Source: Cedecea neteri (GTDB taxonomy: Bacteria; Pseudomonadota; Gammaproteobacteria; Enterobacterales; Enterobacteriaceae). Taken from it: a stretch of DNA of 64,000 nucleotides. Below are positions 2,381 through 42,427 of this stretch, piece after piece. Each line of letters begins with the position of its first letter. The first letter of the stretch is position 1. The stretch covers positions 3,038,001 through 3,102,000 of the forward strand of contig NZ_CP009459.1 of NCBI RefSeq assembly GCF_000758325.1. The letters are read 5' to 3'. The notes beneath the pieces were generated by a model. That model was not told where the DNA came from. It searched no databases and saw nothing but the letters and a program-made list of their open reading frames with translations. Made by a program: the position numbers and the translations under genes.

Positions 2381-4345
2381 ATGCGCCTGCACGCAAATCA
2401 ACTTGAATTACTCAGCCCTGCCCGTGATACCGCCATCGCCCGCGAAGCCATCCTCCATGGTGCGGATGCGGTTTACATCGGTGGGCCTGGCTTTGGCGCA
2501 CGCCACAACGCCGGCAACAGCCTGCAAGACCTGGCCGAACTGGTGCCGTTTGCCCACCGCTACGGGGCGAAGATTTTTGTTACCCTAAACACCATTCTGC
2601 ATGATGACGAACTGGAGCCAGCTCGCTCGATGATCGTCGACTTGTACGAAGCCGGGGTTGATGCGCTGATTGTGCAGGATATGGGCGTACTGGAAATGGA
2701 TCTGCCGCCGATTGAGCTGCACGCCAGTACCCAGTGCGACATTCGCAGTGTGGAAAAAGCGAAGTTTCTGTCCGATGCAGGTTTCTCGCAAATCGTGCTG
2801 GCGCGCGAGCTGAACCTGCAGCAAATTGCTGCCATTCACCAGAATGTCGACGCGACGATTGAATTCTTTATTCACGGTGCGCTGTGCGTGGCGTATTCCG
2901 GGCAGTGTAATATTTCCCACGCCCAGACCGGGCGCAGCGCCAACCGCGGCGACTGCTCGCAGGCCTGCCGCCTGCCGTACACCCTGAAAGACGACCAGGG
3001 CCGCGTCGTGGCCTATGAAAAACACCTGCTCTCGATGAAAGACAACGATCAGAGCGCCAACCTGGCGGCGTTGGTCGAGGCGGGCGTGCGTTCCTTCAAA
3101 ATTGAAGGGCGTTACAAAGACATGAGCTACGTGAAAAACATCACCGCTTACTACCGTCAGCTGCTGGACGAGCTGATGGAAGGGCGCAGCGACCTGACTC
3201 GTGCGTCTTCCGGCGTGACCTCGCACTACTTTATCCCGTCGCCGGATAAAACTTTCCACCGCGGCAGCACTGACTACTTCGTGAACGAGCGCAAAATCGA
3301 CATCGGCGCATTTGACTCACCGAAATTTGTTGGCCTGCCGGTGGGCGAAGTGCTGAAAGTGAGCAAAGATCACCTCGACGTCATTACCACCGACACATTG
3401 ACTAATGGTGATGGCCTGAACGTGCTGATCAAGCGTGAAATCGTCGGCTTCCGCGCTAATACGGTGGAAAAAACCGGGAAAAATCAGTATCGCGTCTGGC
3501 CAAACGAAATGCCGGAAACGCTGAAAAAGGTGCGCCCTAACCACCCGCTGAACCGTAACCTGGATCACAACTGGCAGCAGGCGCTGCTGAAAACCTCCAG
3601 CGAGCGCCGCGTGGCGGTGGATATCGAACTGAGCGGCAGCCAGCAGCAGCTGGTGATGAAGGCGACCAGCGAAGAGGGCGTCAGCGTTACTCAAACGCTC
3701 GTCGGCCAGTTTGATGTCGCCAATAATCCGCAGAAAGCGTTCGACAGCCTGCGTGACGGCCTGACCAGGCTGGGCCAGACCATGTACTCCGCGCGGAAAG
3801 TGAACATCTTGCTGGAAGAAGCTTTATTTGTGCCAAACGCCCAGCTTAACCAGCTGCGCCGTGATGCCATTGAAGCGCTGACCGAAGCGCGGCTGCAAAA
3901 CTACCAGCGCGGCACCCGTAAAGCGGTGAGCGTGCCACCACCGGTCTACCCGGACAGCCATTTAAGCTTCCTGGCGAACGTGTATAACCATAAAGCGCGT
4001 GAGTTTTATCACCGCTATGGCGTGCAACTGATTGACGCTGCCTATGAAGCACATGAAGAGAAGGGCGAAGTGCCGGTGATGATCACCAAGCACTGCCTGC
4101 GCTTTGCGTTTAATCTCTGCCCGAAACAGGCGAAAGGCAATATTAAGAGCTGGAAGGCCACCCCGATGCAGCTGGTGCATGGCGATGAAGTGCTGACGCT
4201 GAAATTTGACTGCCGCCCGTGCGAAATGCACGTCATCGGCAAGATGAAGAACCATATCCTGAAGATGCCGCTGCCGGGTAGCGTAGTGGCGTCCATCAGC
4301 CCGGACGATTTGATGAAAACGCTGCCGGGCAAAGCGAAGCGTTAA
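2381..4345 (+). CDS. rlhA: 23S rRNA 5-hydroxycytidine C2501 synthase RlhA
   Basis: A 654-residue U32-peptidase-family protein closely matching E. coli RlhA (YdcP). RlhA hydroxylates cytidine 2501 in the peptidyl transferase region of 23S rRNA; the reaction is linked to prephenate and iron. The N-terminal half has ELLSPARDTAIAREAILHGADAVYIGG, here split by residues 10-36, and the family signature FFIHGALCVAYSGQC with further cysteines in RGDCSQACRLPY around residues 190-225, expected to hold an iron-sulfur cluster. The C-terminal part has KHCLRFAFNLCPKQ and FDCRPCEMHV. I chose the ATG at 2381 because it aligns with the E. coli N terminus; the ribosome site is weak. A terminator follows. Confidence 0.93.
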   Translation: MRLHANQLELLSPARDTAIAREAILHGADAVYIGGPGFGARHNAGNSLQDLAELVPFAHRYGAKIFVTLNTILHDDELEPARSMIVDLYEAGVDALIVQDMGVLEMDLPPIELHASTQCDIRSVEKAKFLSDAGFSQIVLARELNLQQIAAIHQNVDATIEFFIHGALCVAYSGQCNISHAQTGRSANRGDCSQACRLPYTLKDDQGRVVAYEKHLLSMKDNDQSANLAALVEAGVRSFKIEGRYKDMSYVKNITAYYRQLLDELMEGRSDLTRASSGVTSHYFIPSPDKTFHRGSTDYFVNERKIDIGAFDSPKFVGLPVGEVLKVSKDHLDVITTDTLTNGDGLNVLIKREIVGFRANTVEKTGKNQYRVWPNEMPETLKKVRPNHPLNRNLDHNWQQALLKTSSERRVAVDIELSGSQQQLVMKATSEEGVSVTQTLVGQFDVANNPQKAFDSLRDGLTRLGQTMYSARKVNILLEEALFVPNAQLNQLRRDAIEALTEARLQNYQRGTRKAVSVPPPVYPDSHLSFLANVYNHKAREFYHRYGVQLIDAAYEAHEEKGEVPVMITKHCLRFAFNLCPKQAKGNIKSWKATPMQLVHGDEVLTLKFDCRPCEMHVIGKMKNHILKMPLPGSVVASISPDDLMKTLPGKAKR

Positions 4346-4362
4346 TTTCCCTGCTTATTATT

Positions 4363-4393
4363 AAAACCGTCTATATCAGGCGGTTTTTTTTTA
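4363..4393 (+). terminator. Rho-independent terminator after rlhA
   Basis: AAAACCG and CGGTTTT form a stem around the loop TCTATATCAGG, followed by a run of T to 4391. It separates rlhA from the arn operon. Confidence 0.85.
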
Positions 4394-4714
4394 ATCATTC
4401 GTAGGGGATAAATTATTATTTGTCACACCCGGAATTATTCCGCGATTAAACAAATAGGCATTAAGCGTGACAAGCAGGTGACAATTTTTGTCTATCTCAG
4501 TCACTTTTTCAGCCAGCAATGCTTAACTTCACGATTTTTCGTTATATCTCACTTTCTTAATACTGTTCTAAGATTTCTTTGTTAAATTCTTTTCATTGAT
4601 AAGATGTTTAGCTAAACAGGCCGTACTTCCCGAGTGTTGTGCTTTTATTTAATTAGCCTGATTCATTATCCCGTCAGCTTTTGGCGTTTAGCGATTTAAT
4701 AAGGAATCCACGTA
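4394..4714 (+). promoter_or_regulatory. arn operon promoter region with PmrA-type box
   Basis: This AT-rich 320-bp gap holds no gene. At 4556-4572 lies CTTAAT-N5-TCTAAG, a close match to the PmrA (BasR) direct repeat YTTAAK-N5-YTTAAK. A possible -10 (ATTGAT) starts 22 bp after the box, the spacing typical of PmrA-activated promoters. A GGA-containing ribosome site (AATAAGGAATCC) lies before the arnB ATG. PmrA control of arn is well established in Salmonella and E. coli; its operation here is inferred from the box. Confidence 0.6.
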
Positions 4715-5854
4715 ATGAGTGATTTTCTGCCTTTTTCACGCCCGGCGTTAGGTGCGGAAGAAATTGCAGCGGTAACGGAAGTCATGCAATCCGGCTGGAT
4801 CACCACCGGGCCGAAAAACCAGGCGCTTGAGAAAGCATTTTGTGACTTAACCGGCAATAAACATGCCATTGCGGTAAGCTCAGCCACCGGCGGGATGCAC
4901 GTTACCCTGATGGCACTTGGGCTGCAGGCGGGTGACGAGGTGATTACCCCCTCACTGACCTGGGTCTCCACGCTCAACATGATTGTGCTGCTGGGTGCCG
5001 AACCAGTAATGATCGACGTCGATCGCGATACGCTGATGGTTACGCCAGAAGCCATTGAAGCGGCCATTACCCCACGCACTAAAGCGATCATTCCCGTGCA
5101 CTACGCGGGGGCGCCTGCCGACATCGACGCTATTCGCGCCATCGGTGAACGTCACGGCATTCCGGTGATTGAAGATGCTGCGCACGCCGCGGGCACCGGG
5201 TACAAAGGCAAGCACGTTGGCGGCAAGGGCACGGCAATCTTCTCTTTCCACGCTATTAAGAACATGACCTGCGCCGAAGGCGGCCTGATCGTCACCGACG
5301 ACGACCAGTTTGCTAACCGCATTCGTAGCCTGAAATTCCACGGCCTGGGCGTAGACGCCTTTGACCGCCAGACCCATGGCCGTGCGCCGCAGGCTGAAGT
5401 TATCTCTCCAGGGTTCAAATACAACCTTGCGGATATCAACGCGGCTATCGCGCTGGTGCAGCTTGGCAAACTGGAGCAGATCAACGTCCGTCGTCAGGAA
5501 ATCGCCGAACGCTACCTCAAAGAGCTGACCGACACGCCATTCCTGCCGCTGGCCACGCCGACCTGGCAGCACCGCCACGCCTGGCACCTGTTTATCATCC
5601 GCGTGGATGAAGCCACCTGCGGTATTTCTCGCAGCGGCCTGATGGAGGCGCTGAAAGAGCGCGGCATCGGCACCGGTCTGCACTTCCGCGCGGCGCACAC
5701 CCAGAAGTATTACCGCGATCGCTACCCGCAGCTTCAACTGCCGAACAGCGACTGGAACAGCGAGCGCATTTGCTCCATTCCGCTGTTCCCAACCATGACC
5801 GACGATGACACTTCCCGCGTCATTACCGCATTACGTGAAATAGCAGGACTTTAA
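4715..5854 (+). CDS. arnB: UDP-4-amino-4-deoxy-L-arabinose aminotransferase ArnB
   Basis: A 379-residue PLP-dependent aminotransferase of the DegT/DnrJ/EryC1 family. It converts UDP-4-keto-arabinose (made by ArnA) to UDP-L-Ara4N with glutamate as amino donor. Lys182 in [14 protein letters not shown] is the expected PLP-binding lysine, and the substrate-binding run [12 protein letters not shown] and [13 protein letters not shown] are present. Length matches E. coli ArnB. It is the first gene of the arn operon; arnC begins 1 bp after its stop. Acts in the cytoplasm. Confidence 0.98.
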
Positions 5855-37323: not shown

Positions 37324-38256
37324 ATGATAAACAGCGACGATCTGGCTTTTTTCCGCACTATTGCCACCCATAGCACGCTGGCCGCTGCCGCAAGGGCGAT
37401 GAACGTCACGCCGCCCTCCGTTACGCAGCGGCTGCGCGGGCTGGAACAAAAACTTGGTGTTGATCTTATTTTGCGGCCTTCGCGGCAGGTTTCGCTGACC
37501 GATGAAGGCTCGCTGCTGCTGAGCCGGGCGGAGAAGATTCTCACCGAACTGGCGGGTCTGCAATCTGCCCTGGATGACAGGCGGCAGCAGGTCAGGGGCA
37601 AGCTGCGCGTGCTGGCCCCGCTGGGGTTTGGCAACGATTATATTGCGCCGTTGCTGGGGGAATACGCCGCCCAGCATGAAAACCTCGAAGTGGAGCTGAC
37701 GCTTTCCGACGACCCGCATTGGGCCACGCTACACAAGTGGGATTTGGTTGTTTTCATCGGCGAGTTGCGCGACTCGAGCATGCACTGCATCAAGCTTGCG
37801 CCCAACCAACGCTTTATCTGTGCTTCGCCGGAATATCTGAACCGAAAGGGCACGCCGCTAACACCGGAACAGCTTGTGGAGCACGACTGCATTGCGCTGC
37901 GGGAAAACAGCGAAGATGTGACGCTGTGGCGTTTTTCCGGCCCAAAAGGGGACTGCCCGCAGCGGATCTCGCCCAAATTATCGAGCAACGAAGGACGCGT
38001 GGTAAAAGAGTGGGCGCTGACGGGCAGGGGGATCATTATGCGCTCCGAATGGGATGTGCTGCCGCAAATCCACAGTGGCGAACTGTTGAGACTACTGCCG
38101 GAATACACGCTGCCAGATGCCGACATCGTGGCGCTGAGCGGCACTCCGCAGGCGGAACGAAGCCCCAGGGCGCAAAAGTTTATCGAACTGCTTAAGCTGC
38201 GGCTGGCGGGTAGGCCCTGGGGGGAATATGCTCATGCTATTGGCGCAAGGGCATAG
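37324..38256 (+). CDS. LysR-family transcriptional regulator
   Basis: A 310-residue LysR regulator with FRTIATHSTLAAAARAM and PPSVTQRLRGLEQKLGVDLI forming the HTH. The substrate domain has FICASPEYLNRKGTPLTPEQL. Divergent from the DSD1-type gene, which it probably controls; AATTAGGT occurs twice in the gap (near 37275 and 37309). Its last 25 bp overlap the end of the convergent metallo-hydrolase gene. Confidence 0.9.
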   Translation: MINSDDLAFFRTIATHSTLAAAARAMNVTPPSVTQRLRGLEQKLGVDLILRPSRQVSLTDEGSLLLSRAEKILTELAGLQSALDDRRQQVRGKLRVLAPLGFGNDYIAPLLGEYAAQHENLEVELTLSDDPHWATLHKWDLVVFIGELRDSSMHCIKLAPNQRFICASPEYLNRKGTPLTPEQLVEHDCIALRENSEDVTLWRFSGPKGDCPQRISPKLSSNEGRVVKEWALTGRGIIMRSEWDVLPQIHSGELLRLLPEYTLPDADIVALSGTPQAERSPRAQKFIELLKLRLAGRPWGEYAHAIGARA

Positions 38257-39083
38257 GAAATAGCATCCCCATCATCAACCATGCCAAGGGTAGCAAAGCC
38301 GGTCCGGTCCAGATGCATACCTGCAATAAGCAGTTTTTCCCTTGCGGCTTGTTTCAGCAGGTTTTTCCGCGTTTGTTCGGCTTGCACCGGATCAACGTCG
38401 AAGAGAATACAGGCGCTGGGCTGCGCAGATTGAATGTGGGGGTAATGAACGATGTCCCCCCATATGAGTAAGCTTTTATCGTCCGCATCAATGCGAAAGC
38501 CAGTGTGGCCCGGCGTGTGACCCGGTAACCAAACCGGGAGGATACCCGCCGTGATTTCACGCTGGCTAAAAAAATGCAGGTTCTGTGCATAGGCCTCTAA
38601 TGTTTGACGTGCCAGCCTGAAGTTAAGTTTGCCCCGCTCATTGGCGCCTCTTTGTTTTTCATCATTCAGCCAGTACTCTGCTTCCAGAGGGTGCAAATGA
38701 AGTTCCGCCTGTCTATAGACAGGGTTTCCTTCTGCATCCAGCAGGCCGCCAATATGGTCAGGATGACAGTGACTCAACAAAACCATGTCCACGTCATCTG
38801 GACCGACACCCAGAGCGGCAAGATTTGTTCTCAATTGCCCGCCAACGTTATTCCGTCCCCCCGTACCTGTATCCACCAGCAGGGTGAGTCCCTGCCCGCG
38901 GATCAGGTAAGCGTTAATTTGAATATTGCCGGGCTCGGCCAGGCCTGCGCTCTGCTGGATGGCTTCTGCTTCAGCGATGTCGATGCCAGAGAGTAAATCC
39001 AGGCTGGCGGGCATGGAGCCATCACTTAAGGCGGTAACCAGAAAATCGCCAATCTGGCAGGACGGAAAAGATGAATAATTCAT
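38232..39083 (-). CDS. Metallo-beta-lactamase-fold hydrolase
   Basis: A 283-residue MBL-superfamily enzyme. The metal-binding motif LLSHCHPDHIGG places His105, His107, Asp109 and His110; further ligands are in LPGHTPGHTGF and WGDIVHYP. The layout resembles the quorum-quenching lactonase and methyl parathion hydrolase-like groups, but substrate cannot be read from sequence. No signal peptide, so cytoplasmic. It is divergent from the LysR gene at 39329. Confidence 0.85.
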   Translation of the reverse strand: MNYSSFPSCQIGDFLVTALSDGSMPASLDLLSGIDIAEAEAIQQSAGLAEPGNIQINAYLIRGQGLTLLVDTGTGGRNNVGGQLRTNLAALGVGPDDVDMVLLSHCHPDHIGGLLDAEGNPVYRQAELHLHPLEAEYWLNDEKQRGANERGKLNFRLARQTLEAYAQNLHFFSQREITAGILPVWLPGHTPGHTGFRIDADDKSLLIWGDIVHYPHIQSAQPSACILFDVDPVQAEQTRKNLLKQAAREKLLIAGMHLDRTGFATLGMVDDGDAISYALAPIA

Positions 39084-39328: not shown

Positions 39329-40231
39329 ATGCGTAGAAAAATTCCCAGCAGTACATCCCTGCAGGCTTTTGAGGCGGCGGCCCGGCACGGTAATTTTGCC
39401 CGGGCAGCCGAGGAACTTTCGCTGACGGAAGGGGCCATTAGTCGCCAGATTGCACGCCTCGAATCGTTACTGGGTTGTCGACTGTTTGACCGGACAGGGA
39501 GCCGCGTGAAACTCAACCCTGTCGGTACGCGATATGCCTCCCATGTTCGCGAAACGCTTAAGCGAATTGAAAGAGATACTCAGTACATCATGGGTATGCC
39601 GAGGGACAGCAGGAGTCTGGATATTGCCGCGCCACCGACATTTTCGAGCCGGTGGCTTATCCCCCGGCTGAGCCGTTTTGCTGCTTTACATCCGGACATC
39701 ACGTTAAATATTGCCGCCAGAACCGATCCTTTCGTTTTGAGCGGAAGCGGTTTTGATGCCGTAGTGCATTTTGAACATGCCGCATGGGCCGGGATGCGCG
39801 TGCAATTTCTCTTTGAGGAAAAACTGGTTCCCGTATGCCACCCGGGGTTGTTAACAGATCATGAGGGAAAGGGGCAGTTGAAGGATTTACCAAGAATTCA
39901 CAGACGCCTGAACCCGGATGCATGGCATCACTATGCCCGTGCAACGGGAATAAGCCTTGATAATCTGGCGCAGGGGGCCCGGTACGATCTTCATGAAATG
40001 GCCATTGCTGCCGCACTGGCTGGGCAAGGTGTTGCCCTGGTACCACGCATGTACGTTGCACAAGAACTCGATAGCGGAAGACTGGTCGCCCCCTGGCCGG
40101 AATCAGACTCGTTGAGTAAAAAATTCTGTTTAGTGAAACCGGTGGAAACGGGAATCAACGAATCTGCATTAATCGATTTTGAGTGCTGGCTACTGGACGA
40201 AATTAATCCGCAAACAGGGACATTCCGCTAA
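39329..40231 (+). CDS. LysR-family (GcvA-like) transcriptional regulator
   Basis: A 300-residue LysR protein of the GcvA group (STSLQAFEAAARHGNFARAA, then AISRQIARLESLLGCRLF). I chose the ATG at 39329, preceded by GGAGG; an upstream TTG at 39311 has no ribosome site. The gap to the divergent MBL gene has ATCGAT repeats around 39264-39292 as possible operator. Its 3' end (from about 40049) is partly repeated at 40889-40962, see the lysR remnant. The MBL hydrolase is its likely target. Confidence 0.9.
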   Translation: MRRKIPSSTSLQAFEAAARHGNFARAAEELSLTEGAISRQIARLESLLGCRLFDRTGSRVKLNPVGTRYASHVRETLKRIERDTQYIMGMPRDSRSLDIAAPPTFSSRWLIPRLSRFAALHPDITLNIAARTDPFVLSGSGFDAVVHFEHAAWAGMRVQFLFEEKLVPVCHPGLLTDHEGKGQLKDLPRIHRRLNPDAWHHYARATGISLDNLAQGARYDLHEMAIAAALAGQGVALVPRMYVAQELDSGRLVAPWPESDSLSKKFCLVKPVETGINESALIDFECWLLDEINPQTGTFR

Positions 40232-40233
40232 TA

Positions 40234-40290
40234 GAGATTTTATTTTGCTCTCTGGTTGCCCACACTGTTTTTATTGAAAGCATCACATAA
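40234..40290 (-). pseudogene. 3' remnant of an Imm63-type immunity gene
   Basis: Read leftward, 40290-40234 encodes VMLSIKTVWATREQNKI, nearly the same as LMLSIKTAWATREKNEI at the C terminus of the intact Imm63 gene at 41002-41397, with almost identical nucleotides over about 40 bp. No upstream part of the gene remains in frame. It lies directly downstream of, and convergent with, the lysR gene, and 22 bp before gpx. Confidence 0.75.
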
Positions 40291-40311
40291 GCGAGCGCTA
40301 AGGACTCCAAC

Positions 40312-40794
40312 ATGAATCCATTTCATCAACTGACGGCCACCAGTCTGACTGGCCAGCAGATTACCCTGTCCGATTACGCCGGTAAGCTGGTGCTGGTGGT
40401 GAATACCGCCAGCCAGTGTGGCTTTACGCCGCAGTACGCAGGCCTTGAGGCTCTCTATAAGAAATACGCCGAGCAAGGGCTGGTGGTGCTTGGTTTCCCC
40501 TGTAACCAGTTTGGCAAGCAGGAACCTGGTGACGCCGATGACATCGCGCGGACCTGCCATATTAACTACGGCGTGAGCTTCCCGATGTTCGCAAAAATCG
40601 AAGTCAACGGAACCGCCGCGCATCCCGTGTTTCGTTATCTGAAAAATGAGTTGCCAGGCGTGCTGGGGGGCCGCATCAAGTGGAACTTCACAAAGTTCCT
40701 GATTGGCCGGGACGGAAAACCGCTGAAGCGTTTTGCACCGTTCACGACCCCGGAGAAAATGGAAGCCGCAATCGTGGCTGCACTTAAAATTTGA
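40312..40794 (+). CDS. Glutathione peroxidase-family thiol peroxidase
   Basis: A 160-residue peroxidase. Cys36 in NTASQCGFTPQY is the peroxidatic residue (cysteine, not selenocysteine), Gln70 in GFPCNQFGKQEPG and Trp in KWNFTKFLI complete the catalytic set; Cys64 is also present. Enterobacterial homologues such as BtuE reduce hydroperoxides mostly with thioredoxin. AAGGA before ATG gives a good start. It is a lone gene bracketed by two copies of a lysR-imm63 junction. Confidence 0.92.
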   Translation: MNPFHQLTATSLTGQQITLSDYAGKLVLVVNTASQCGFTPQYAGLEALYKKYAEQGLVVLGFPCNQFGKQEPGDADDIARTCHINYGVSFPMFAKIEVNGTAAHPVFRYLKNELPGVLGGRIKWNFTKFLIGRDGKPLKRFAPFTTPEKMEAAIVAALKI

Positions 40795-40888
40795 GCGTGT
40801 CCGCCATTGGAAAAATAATGCCATCTGTGTCGTGTAAAGGGCTAAGCGAAGAACAGGGTGATGCAAAAAACTGGCGATCTTTCAATCA

Positions 40889-40982
40889 AGTGTTGCGGAT
40901 GTACGTTGCACAAGAGCCCGGCCTCGGAAGGTTTGTCGGCCCCTGGCCGGAAGTAGCCTATAGCGTAATACCATTAAGGTGA
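40889..40982 (+). pseudogene. Remnant of a lysR 3' end
   Basis: This stretch encodes RMYVAQEPGLGRFVGPWPE and then stops, matching RMYVAQELDSGRLVAPWPE near the C terminus of the intact LysR protein at 39329-40231; about 80% of bases agree over 56 bp. The rest of the gene is absent. Just before it, 40871-40887 repeats 16 of 17 bases of the mesD terminator stem (42385-42401). A 63-codon open frame from 40791 passes through it but is not convincing as a gene. Confidence 0.7.
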
Positions 40983-41001
40983 ATAATGACTATTCCAGGG
41001 G

Positions 41002-41397
41002 TTATACGTGAAGATGAGATTTGATTTCATTTTTCTCTCTGGTTGCCCACGCTGTTTTTATTGAAAGCATCAAGTAAAACCGCTTTCTAAAATACGCCGT
41101 CCTGAAATCTTCATCAGGCGAGGCGTGTGTAGCAGCGTAACTTGAAGCTAACGCATTGACGCCGCAACGAGTAAACCAATAAAGAATTTCCTCATCACTT
41201 GGCGTTACCTTTCGTGTGGTCTCCATACCTCGCTCGTTTACCACAAAATGATATTCCTGGTCATGAATCTCAAGGTAGGGTGTCGCGAAATAGTCAGGCT
41301 TATCAGGAATAATAAAGTAATGGTTTGGCCTGACGCCGCCCCCGAGTTGCTTGCCAATAGCCAGAAGCTCAGCTCTCAGCGTTTCGATAGTTTTCAT
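41002..41397 (-). CDS. Imm63-family immunity-like protein
   Basis: A 131-residue soluble protein. The middle YLEIHDQEYHFVVNERGMET and EEILYWFTRCGVNALASSYA match my recollection of the immunity protein 63 family, found beside polymorphic toxins (Rhs, contact-dependent or type VI effectors). No toxin gene is nearby, so it would be an orphan immunity gene. Starts 4 bp after the stop of the upstream 67-residue gene. Its last 15 codons are duplicated at 40234-40290. Family assignment should be confirmed by profile search. Confidence 0.65.
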   Translation of the reverse strand: MKTIETLRAELLAIGKQLGGGVRPNHYFIIPDKPDYFATPYLEIHDQEYHFVVNERGMETTRKVTPSDEEILYWFTRCGVNALASSYAATHASPDEDFRTAYFRKRFYLMLSIKTAWATREKNEIKSHLHV

Positions 41398-41401
41398 TGA
41401 G

Positions 41402-41605
41402 TCATTCGTTATCCCTGTCGCTGGCGTAATATTCGAAGCCAGAAATTACGCCGTTTACTGAACAGGGAAGGAATCCACTGAACGTTAGTAAGGCGATATC
41501 GCTGTCAAGTTCACAGGGAAACCCTTGCTGTAATATCTCTTCTTTCCACTCTTCAGGCGTCGGTAGGTTGTGCGTATGTAAATAAACACCGAAATCACGA
41601 GACAT
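41402..41605 (-). CDS. Small hypothetical protein, possibly a truncated immunity-like gene
   Basis: A 67-residue protein starting MSRDFGVYLHTHNLPTPEEW and ending GFEYYASDRDNE. The start resembles a family of small acidic proteins (about 150 residues) often met as toxin-immunity neighbours, so this may be a shortened copy. A longer frame opens at 41758 but overlaps the membrane gene upstream and has no ribosome site. It is followed immediately by the Imm63-like gene. Confidence 0.5.
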   Translation of the reverse strand: MSRDFGVYLHTHNLPTPEEWKEEILQQGFPCELDSDIALLTFSGFLPCSVNGVISGFEYYASDRDNE

Positions 41606-42374: not shown

Positions 42375-42408
42375 ATAAAAAAACCTGGCGATCTCTCAAT
42401 CGCCAGGC
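42375..42408 (-). terminator. Rho-independent terminator after mesD
   Basis: On the minus strand CCTGGCGAT-tgagag-ATCGCCAGG is followed by seven T residues. A partial copy, including the A run, lies at 40865-40887. Confidence 0.9.
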
Positions 42409-42427
42409 TGGCTAGATAAATTTCTGG

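Follow-up and report, generated by a model that had tools for sequence, protein, structure and literature searches.

The broken gene ends that surround the glutathione peroxidase gene gpx of Cedecea neteri are probably leftovers of a local tandem duplication that was followed by partial, separate losses from the two copies. The locus lies in a 64,000-nt stretch of DNA that was analysed as a whole (the window, to whose positions the coordinates below refer), and it contains the following parts.

38232..39083, minus strand: MBL-fold hydrolase, divergent partner of lysR (Pfam PF00753)
39329..40231, plus strand: LysR-type regulator, intact (PF03466, PF00126)
40229..40238: putative deletion scar where the lysR stop meets the end of imm63; first copies of gpx and ddh presumed lost here
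40236..40290, plus strand: copy of the imm63 3' end, taken to close the first repeat unit (the imm63 gene itself lies on the minus strand)
40286..40299: putative duplication joint between the imm63 3' end and the last 14–18 nt of the gpx leader, found in G001 as well
40312..40794, plus strand: glutathione peroxidase gene gpx, the resident gene (PF00255; in 8/8 genus genomes)
40843..40887, plus strand: original gpx 3' flank, ending in half of a metE-like terminator (L033, 82% over 44 nt)
40890..40963, plus strand: decayed internal lysR fragment, also in G001 and G005
40964..40995, plus strand: remnant of ddh, its leader and first 10 coding bases (ATG at 40986), recognized by comparison with relatives
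40995..41001: putative deletion scar where the ddh start meets the ddh-imm63 interval, also present in G001
41002..41397, minus strand: imm63, intact orphan immunity-type gene (PF15599, E 4.7e-14)
41398..41605, minus strand: truncated 67-aa rest of a ~140-aa island gene; the neighbouring 194-aa gene of G005 is deleted
42379..42409: complete terminator of the metE-like gene, where the island ends on the right (fold and repeat comparison)

Repeats on both sides of gpx

Two pieces of sequence are duplicated around gpx. The first, a piece of lysR, spans 40046-40109 and 40896-40959 (64 nt, 78% identity; 81% over a 57-nt core), and the second, the 3' end of imm63, spans 40236-40290 and 41023-41077 (55 nt, 91% identity; 94% over 50 nt). 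Their local alignment scores are 59 and 85, respectively, against maxima of 23 and 28 in 1000 dinucleotide shuffles each, none of which reaches the observed value; comparisons with other stretches of the window on both strands gave top background scores of 27 (2532 comparisons) for the lysR pair and 24 (2534 comparisons) for the imm63 pair. A search of the whole 64 kb for direct repeats (11-base seed, ungapped, at least 45 bp, copies at most 4 kb apart) reported no other such family. A third, shorter repeat (40865-40887 and 42379-42401, 21/23 nt) corresponds to half of the terminator of the metE-like gene; the earlier note discussed next does not mention it.

An earlier note on this DNA had located both repeats correctly, and its assignments of the three genes as LysR (PF03466 and PF00126), GSHPx (PF00255), and Imm63 (PF15599) hold. 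Other parts of its description need adjustment. What it called a lysR tail to the right of gpx is genuinely similar to lysR; it is an internal piece, however, that lacks roughly the last 110–120 nt of the gene. The left imm63 piece does match the imm63 3' end, but the match begins 21 nt inside that end. Finally, the note held that a lysR-imm63 pair exists twice; both elements are indeed repeated, but the lysR fragment belongs to a separate, older event (G005 has the fragment and no imm63 copy), and the duplicated unit also held a third gene, ddh, which is now gone from the window.

The locus in other Cedecea genomes

The genus sample consisted of eight Cedecea genomes, one per species, including the window's own (G000, one 4.66-Mb contig). 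All eight carry gpx, five carry this lysR (E 1e-60), and three carry imm63. G002 and G006 have the order lysR-gpx-metE-like, gpx and the metE-like gene being ~80–85 nt apart. G005 has the order lysR-gpx-(lysR fragment)-ddh-imm63, and G001 has lysR-ddh-(imm63 end)-gpx-(lysR fragment)-(ddh start)-imm63; the repeats are present within G001 too, at 95% (imm63 end), 78% (lysR fragment), 85% (ddh leader), and 96% (terminator). In G003 and G004, gpx is flanked on both sides by other genes before the metE-like gene is reached, with a second lysR gene beyond these in G004, and in G007 the distance from gpx to a relative of the metE-like gene's neighbour is ~2 kb, in a different arrangement. As gpx is present in 8/8 genomes amid differing neighbours, it can be regarded as the fixed point of the locus while its neighbours vary. 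Only three of the eight genomes carry the island that separates gpx from the metE-like gene. The gene left of gpx in G003 and G004 (L035:3226-4101 and L036:3016-3870) resembles an aminoglycoside/hydroxyurea phosphotransferase-family kinase, and a PF04655 match was found for the G004 protein.

The gene missing from the window, ddh, encodes a 320-aa D-2-hydroxyacid dehydrogenase in G005 and G001 (PF02826 and PF00389 for the G005 protein); ~10 coding bases of it (40986-40995) persist in the window. Among 343 family genomes sampled, three had a ddh match (E 1e-90), namely G001 and two genomes outside the genus, the G005 copy having been seen separately; G000, G003, and G006, which are part of that sample, gave no match at this threshold. 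No lysR or imm63 match lies within 14–15.5 kb of ddh in the two non-genus genomes (G102 and G176), and one Pantoea plasmid stretch shows no annotated LysR gene near ddh. Conversely, no ddh match was listed near lysR at 75 non-Cedecea loci (E ≤1e-8, identity ≥40%), some of which end soon after lysR. A joint arrival of ddh and lysR was rejected, given that outside the genus ddh stands without lysR (G102, G176, and the Pantoea plasmid stretch). Fourteen plasmid records match the island, and the ten listed cover the ddh part only, at 67–71% identity; E. coli genomes, searched for near matches, gave none to the island.

The lysR fragment stops at one and the same position ahead of the ddh leader in the window, G001, and G005, and carries common changes in all three genomes, which indicates that it came with the island or formed at its arrival. 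Compared with 78 lysR loci, the fragment is closest to three genus members (51/69), followed by 47/69 for the next best. Two other readings were set aside: no foreign source was found for a fragment from another genus (68 nt being too short to exclude one), and as an RNA element its 96-nt folds are no better than those of shuffled sequences (z −0.43 in the window and −0.10 in G005). In the window and in G001, half of the metE-like terminator follows on the gpx 3' flank ahead of the lysR fragment, and the island is bounded by two ~22-nt copies of this terminator, one of them complete. The intact terminator piece folds strongly (z −3.37) and the half copy does not (z 1.76); the left half copy is absent from G005. 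As a side observation, the bounding copies (40865-40887 and 42379-42401) resemble a target duplication.

To the left of gpx, the best NCBIfam model for the intact LysR-type regulator is GcvA, below its cut-off (245.7 of 288 bits), and an MBL match occurs in 54 of the 58 non-Cedecea lysR loci listed (75 such loci searched). Between the MBL-fold gene and lysR, G005 encodes a 189-aa protein without a Pfam or NCBIfam match (L031:1389-1958), relatives of which occur in 35 of the same 58 listed loci; the window has no room for such a gene at this place.

To the right, the imm63 product scores 52.8 bits against PF15599 (curated cut-off 26.7), a profile match that places it in the Imm63 immunity family as a predicted member. 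No partner toxin was identified beside it, nor any secretion or toxin gene among the genes examined at the locus; it has one Imm63, and the neighbouring 194-aa and ~141-aa genes have no Pfam match. Elsewhere, imm63 is found inside a ~510–600-nt stretch that is 90–96% identical between unlike surroundings in four genomes of three other genera (L137:5450-6020, L140:4599-5196, L130:1442-2005, L133:1409-2002, and L136:1371-1932). The carriers are G016 (twice), G275, G256, and G268, that is, 4 of 391 family genomes sampled (at least 94%). A GTCCGCTYCTGGCAC motif, which carries a single mismatch in one copy, lies near the end of the stretch. The limits of the stretch are not firm, as three pairs share 1.0–1.7 kb; on these comparisons it may move as a small cassette. 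The window's imm63 copy is ~70% alike to this stretch, and an exact copy of the GTCCGCTYCTGGCAC motif is absent from G000. In G268 (L142:4332-5415) the imm63 stretch lies directly downstream of gpx and convergent with it, as in the window, in different surroundings. This adjacency is probably a coincidence, a common landing site being possible.

The direction of change follows from the gpx leader. Its 102 nt in G005 are common to G002 and G006, and the last ~33 nt are found in G004 as well; the window and G001 keep only 14–18 nt. Because G005 shares its leader with the island-less G002 and G006, and in part with G004, it can be taken as the unduplicated state, and the leaderless state is derived. 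The presence of the lysR fragment in G005 without an imm63 copy makes the fragment older than the duplication. The divergence of the repeats fits this order, with imm63 copies at 91–95% and the lysR fragment at 74–81%, depending on the stretch compared. In a lysR tree (five rows, midpoint root), G000 and G001 stand apart from G005, G002, and G006 (100/100). In the gpx tree, G001 groups with G003 (100/99) and not with G000, from which we infer that homologous exchange has acted at the locus. The G001 gpx (L032:3104-3586, 80-nt windows) looks mosaic, its first ~120 nt and positions ~280–480 being nearest to G003 and positions ~120–240 nearest to G005.

Joints and proposed history

The window and G001 were placed on G005 as a map of blocks, using matches with E ≤0.01. 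G001 follows G005 through 2948-3007 and 3704-4866, then returns to 3102-3598 and continues with 3645-3745 and 4784 onward. The window follows 2941-3007 and 4813-4861, returns to 3098-3620, and continues with 3640-3745 and 4784 onward. Both maps comprise five blocks, all directly oriented, and each contains a single backward jump and two large forward ones. The E cut leaves out 1/6 weak rows for G001 and 3/8 for the window, all of 11–12 nt, and one of these would carry the window's imm63-end block back to G005 position 4805. The backward jump (4861-4866 to 3098-3102) is common to both genomes and delimits a unit of ~1.77 kb (~1765 nt). The deletion from 3745 to 4784 is likewise common, with joints at the same place; the first forward jump differs, leading to 3704 in G001 and to ~4805-4813 in the window. 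With rows of E >0.01 omitted, the kept blocks follow the order of a doubled unit in 2/2 genomes.

A backward jump that joins the end of a unit to its own start points to a tandem duplication, and the large forward jumps point to deletions. As the backward jump and the 3745-4784 deletion are common to the window and G001, and lysR groups the two genomes, each most simply happened once, in their common ancestor. The earlier note had offered tandem duplication with loss of complementary halves as one of two explanations, and G001 and G005 together support it well. The undeleted tandem was seen in 0/8 genus genomes, one per species; since it would be a transient state, its absence lowers the claim and does not exclude it.

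The joints themselves are short. Seven junction analyses of five distinct junctions gave an ambiguity of 0–4 nt, a rough figure because the parents are represented by diverged relatives; judged from these junctions, long homology would be needed at none of them. Near the right ddh scar is a short word common to the ddh start and the ddh-imm63 interval. The scar after lysR in the window (40229..40238) is unlike that in G001, where the bases just after the lysR stop have no firm assignment to either parent. Of the gpx 3' flank in the window and G001, ~73–100 nt, including the half terminator, are without a match in G005. The shortness of the joints, these unassigned bases, and the unmatched flank count against a history of duplication and loss, as do the exchanged gpx of G001 and the small number of genomes with the island.

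We favour such a history all the same, and it would have run as follows. From a resident state of lysR-gpx-metE-like, a small island (the lysR fragment, ddh, imm63, and other small genes) would have come to separate gpx from the metE-like gene, the arrangement of G005. In the ancestor of G001 and the window genome, a unit of ~1.77 kb, reaching from just before gpx to ~75 nt inside imm63, would then have been doubled head to tail by the joining of nearly unrelated ends, creating the joint 'imm63 end | gpx start'. Next, a deletion would have removed the second ddh and left the scar common to both genomes, and the first gpx would have been lost. G001 would have ended up with its ddh on the left-hand rather than the right-hand side of gpx; in the window the left ddh would have gone as well, restoring a normal-looking gene order in which fragments alone record the events. 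The blocks, their order, and the common joints are read directly from the alignments; what we infer is the tandem intermediate, the sequence in which parts were lost, and the mechanism at the level of strands. The window may have passed through a G001-like state, or it may have lost its first gpx and first ddh in one deletion. Decay of the locus continues: of the 194-aa gene seen in G005, G001 retains a stub and the window nothing that matches, and the ~141-aa island gene survives in the window as 67 aa.

The strongest competitor, which we consider unlikely, is that the gpx leader was replaced by the inserted copy of a piece with ddh and the end of imm63, taken from the right side of gpx or out of another cell and placed next to lysR, between it and gpx, and that the original ddh was deleted later. 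Two events would then account for G001 instead of three, and homologous exchange, as the mosaic gpx of G001 attests, does occur at the locus; yet such an insertion needs two illegitimate ends at once together with loss of the leader, and these ends would have to mimic a tandem perfectly by coincidence; the joints share 0–4 nt only. Alternatively, the ancestor of the window might have taken up a lysR-to-imm63 segment, already rearranged in another lineage, by homologous recombination. The imm63 genes of G000 and G005 are 95.7% identical, compared with 91.4% for lysR, 88.6% for MBL, and 91.5% for gpx, and the island genes are patchy in the genus (3/8), as such an import would have it. The contrast is inconsistent, however, as the metE-like flank reaches 95.2% (421 nt) and other island pieces only 91.3–92.7%; moreover, an import relocates the event without replacing it, and lysR groups G000 with G001. 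It appears very improbable, although transfer of the island between lineages is possible and would leave the reading of the joints unchanged.

The other explanation of the earlier note, that gpx is a mobile piece inserted into an existing lysR-imm63 junction, is contradicted by the genus comparison. In five stretches from other genera gpx does have mostly other neighbours, but within the genus it is present in all eight genomes, three of them without a match to this lysR (E 1e-60) and five without imm63, near the same flanking genes in the stretches compared (G007 being arranged differently). No empty site was seen, and the gpx 3' flank up to the metE-like terminator is the original one, leaving this explanation scarcely any probability. 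Chance similarity between unrelated tails can be dismissed outright, since 0/1000 shuffles match either repeat and the same pieces recur in G001, the lysR fragment also in G005.

Duplication and losses, as preferred here, might in addition have been other than neutral: by exchanging nearly all of the gpx leader for the 3' end of an immunity gene, they could have given gpx a new transcriptional control that was selected and kept in two sister species. We regard this as unlikely. A promoter prediction gave no site in either gpx leader under the rule used.

Comparison with known rearrangements

The mechanism is an ordinary one, a known kind of event, in a case that is unusually legible. Gene order in bacteria is often compared as though genes hop; here ddh switches sides of its neighbour and then vanishes, and three related genomes and short scars let the steps be read. 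The locus can serve as a worked example of how odd pseudogene-like fragments record duplication and loss, and as a caution that a gene bracketed by repeats need not mean an insertion.

With respect to its immunity gene, the locus can be compared with two kinds of system. Imm63 is listed, in the part of the source available, among families that occur in polyimmunity loci (PMC3482391); the imm63 described here likewise scores above the PF15599 cut-off but differs in that no partner toxin was identified beside it. The orphan immunity arrays of the Vibrio cholerae T6SS, as described in the available portion of that study (PMC5361080), are similar in having an orphan immunity-type gene among small genes, patchy between relatives. 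The present locus, by contrast, is shrinking by deletion, with no sign of the stepwise addition of effector-immunity pairs.

With respect to mechanism, a study of gene clustering invokes tandem duplication in another role, judging from the text at hand (PMC2820515). Comparable too are the spontaneous duplications and deletions of Salmonella, for which the excerpt at hand gives microhomologies at the joints, those deduced to be true being at least 11 bp and at least 8 bp, respectively, in a screen for longer duplications (PMC3411829). The likeness lies in duplications and deletions that arise in ordinary growth with a short common sequence at the joints; the joints described here look shorter (0–4 nt), an estimate that later mutation blurs.

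A close parallel is tandem duplication-random loss (TDRL). Judged by title, the papers found for TDRL together with bacteria and gene order concern animal mitochondrial genomes; the present case differs in its setting, a bacterial chromosome, in its size of only ~1.8 kb, and in that the undeleted duplicate was not seen. The features expected of TDRL are otherwise found: a joint from the downstream to the upstream end of the unit in direct orientation (window and G001), kept order, and an unduplicated relative (G005). As in TDRL, one direct duplication followed by differing losses from the two copies would account both for the changed gene order of G001 and for fragments that lie at the expected places.
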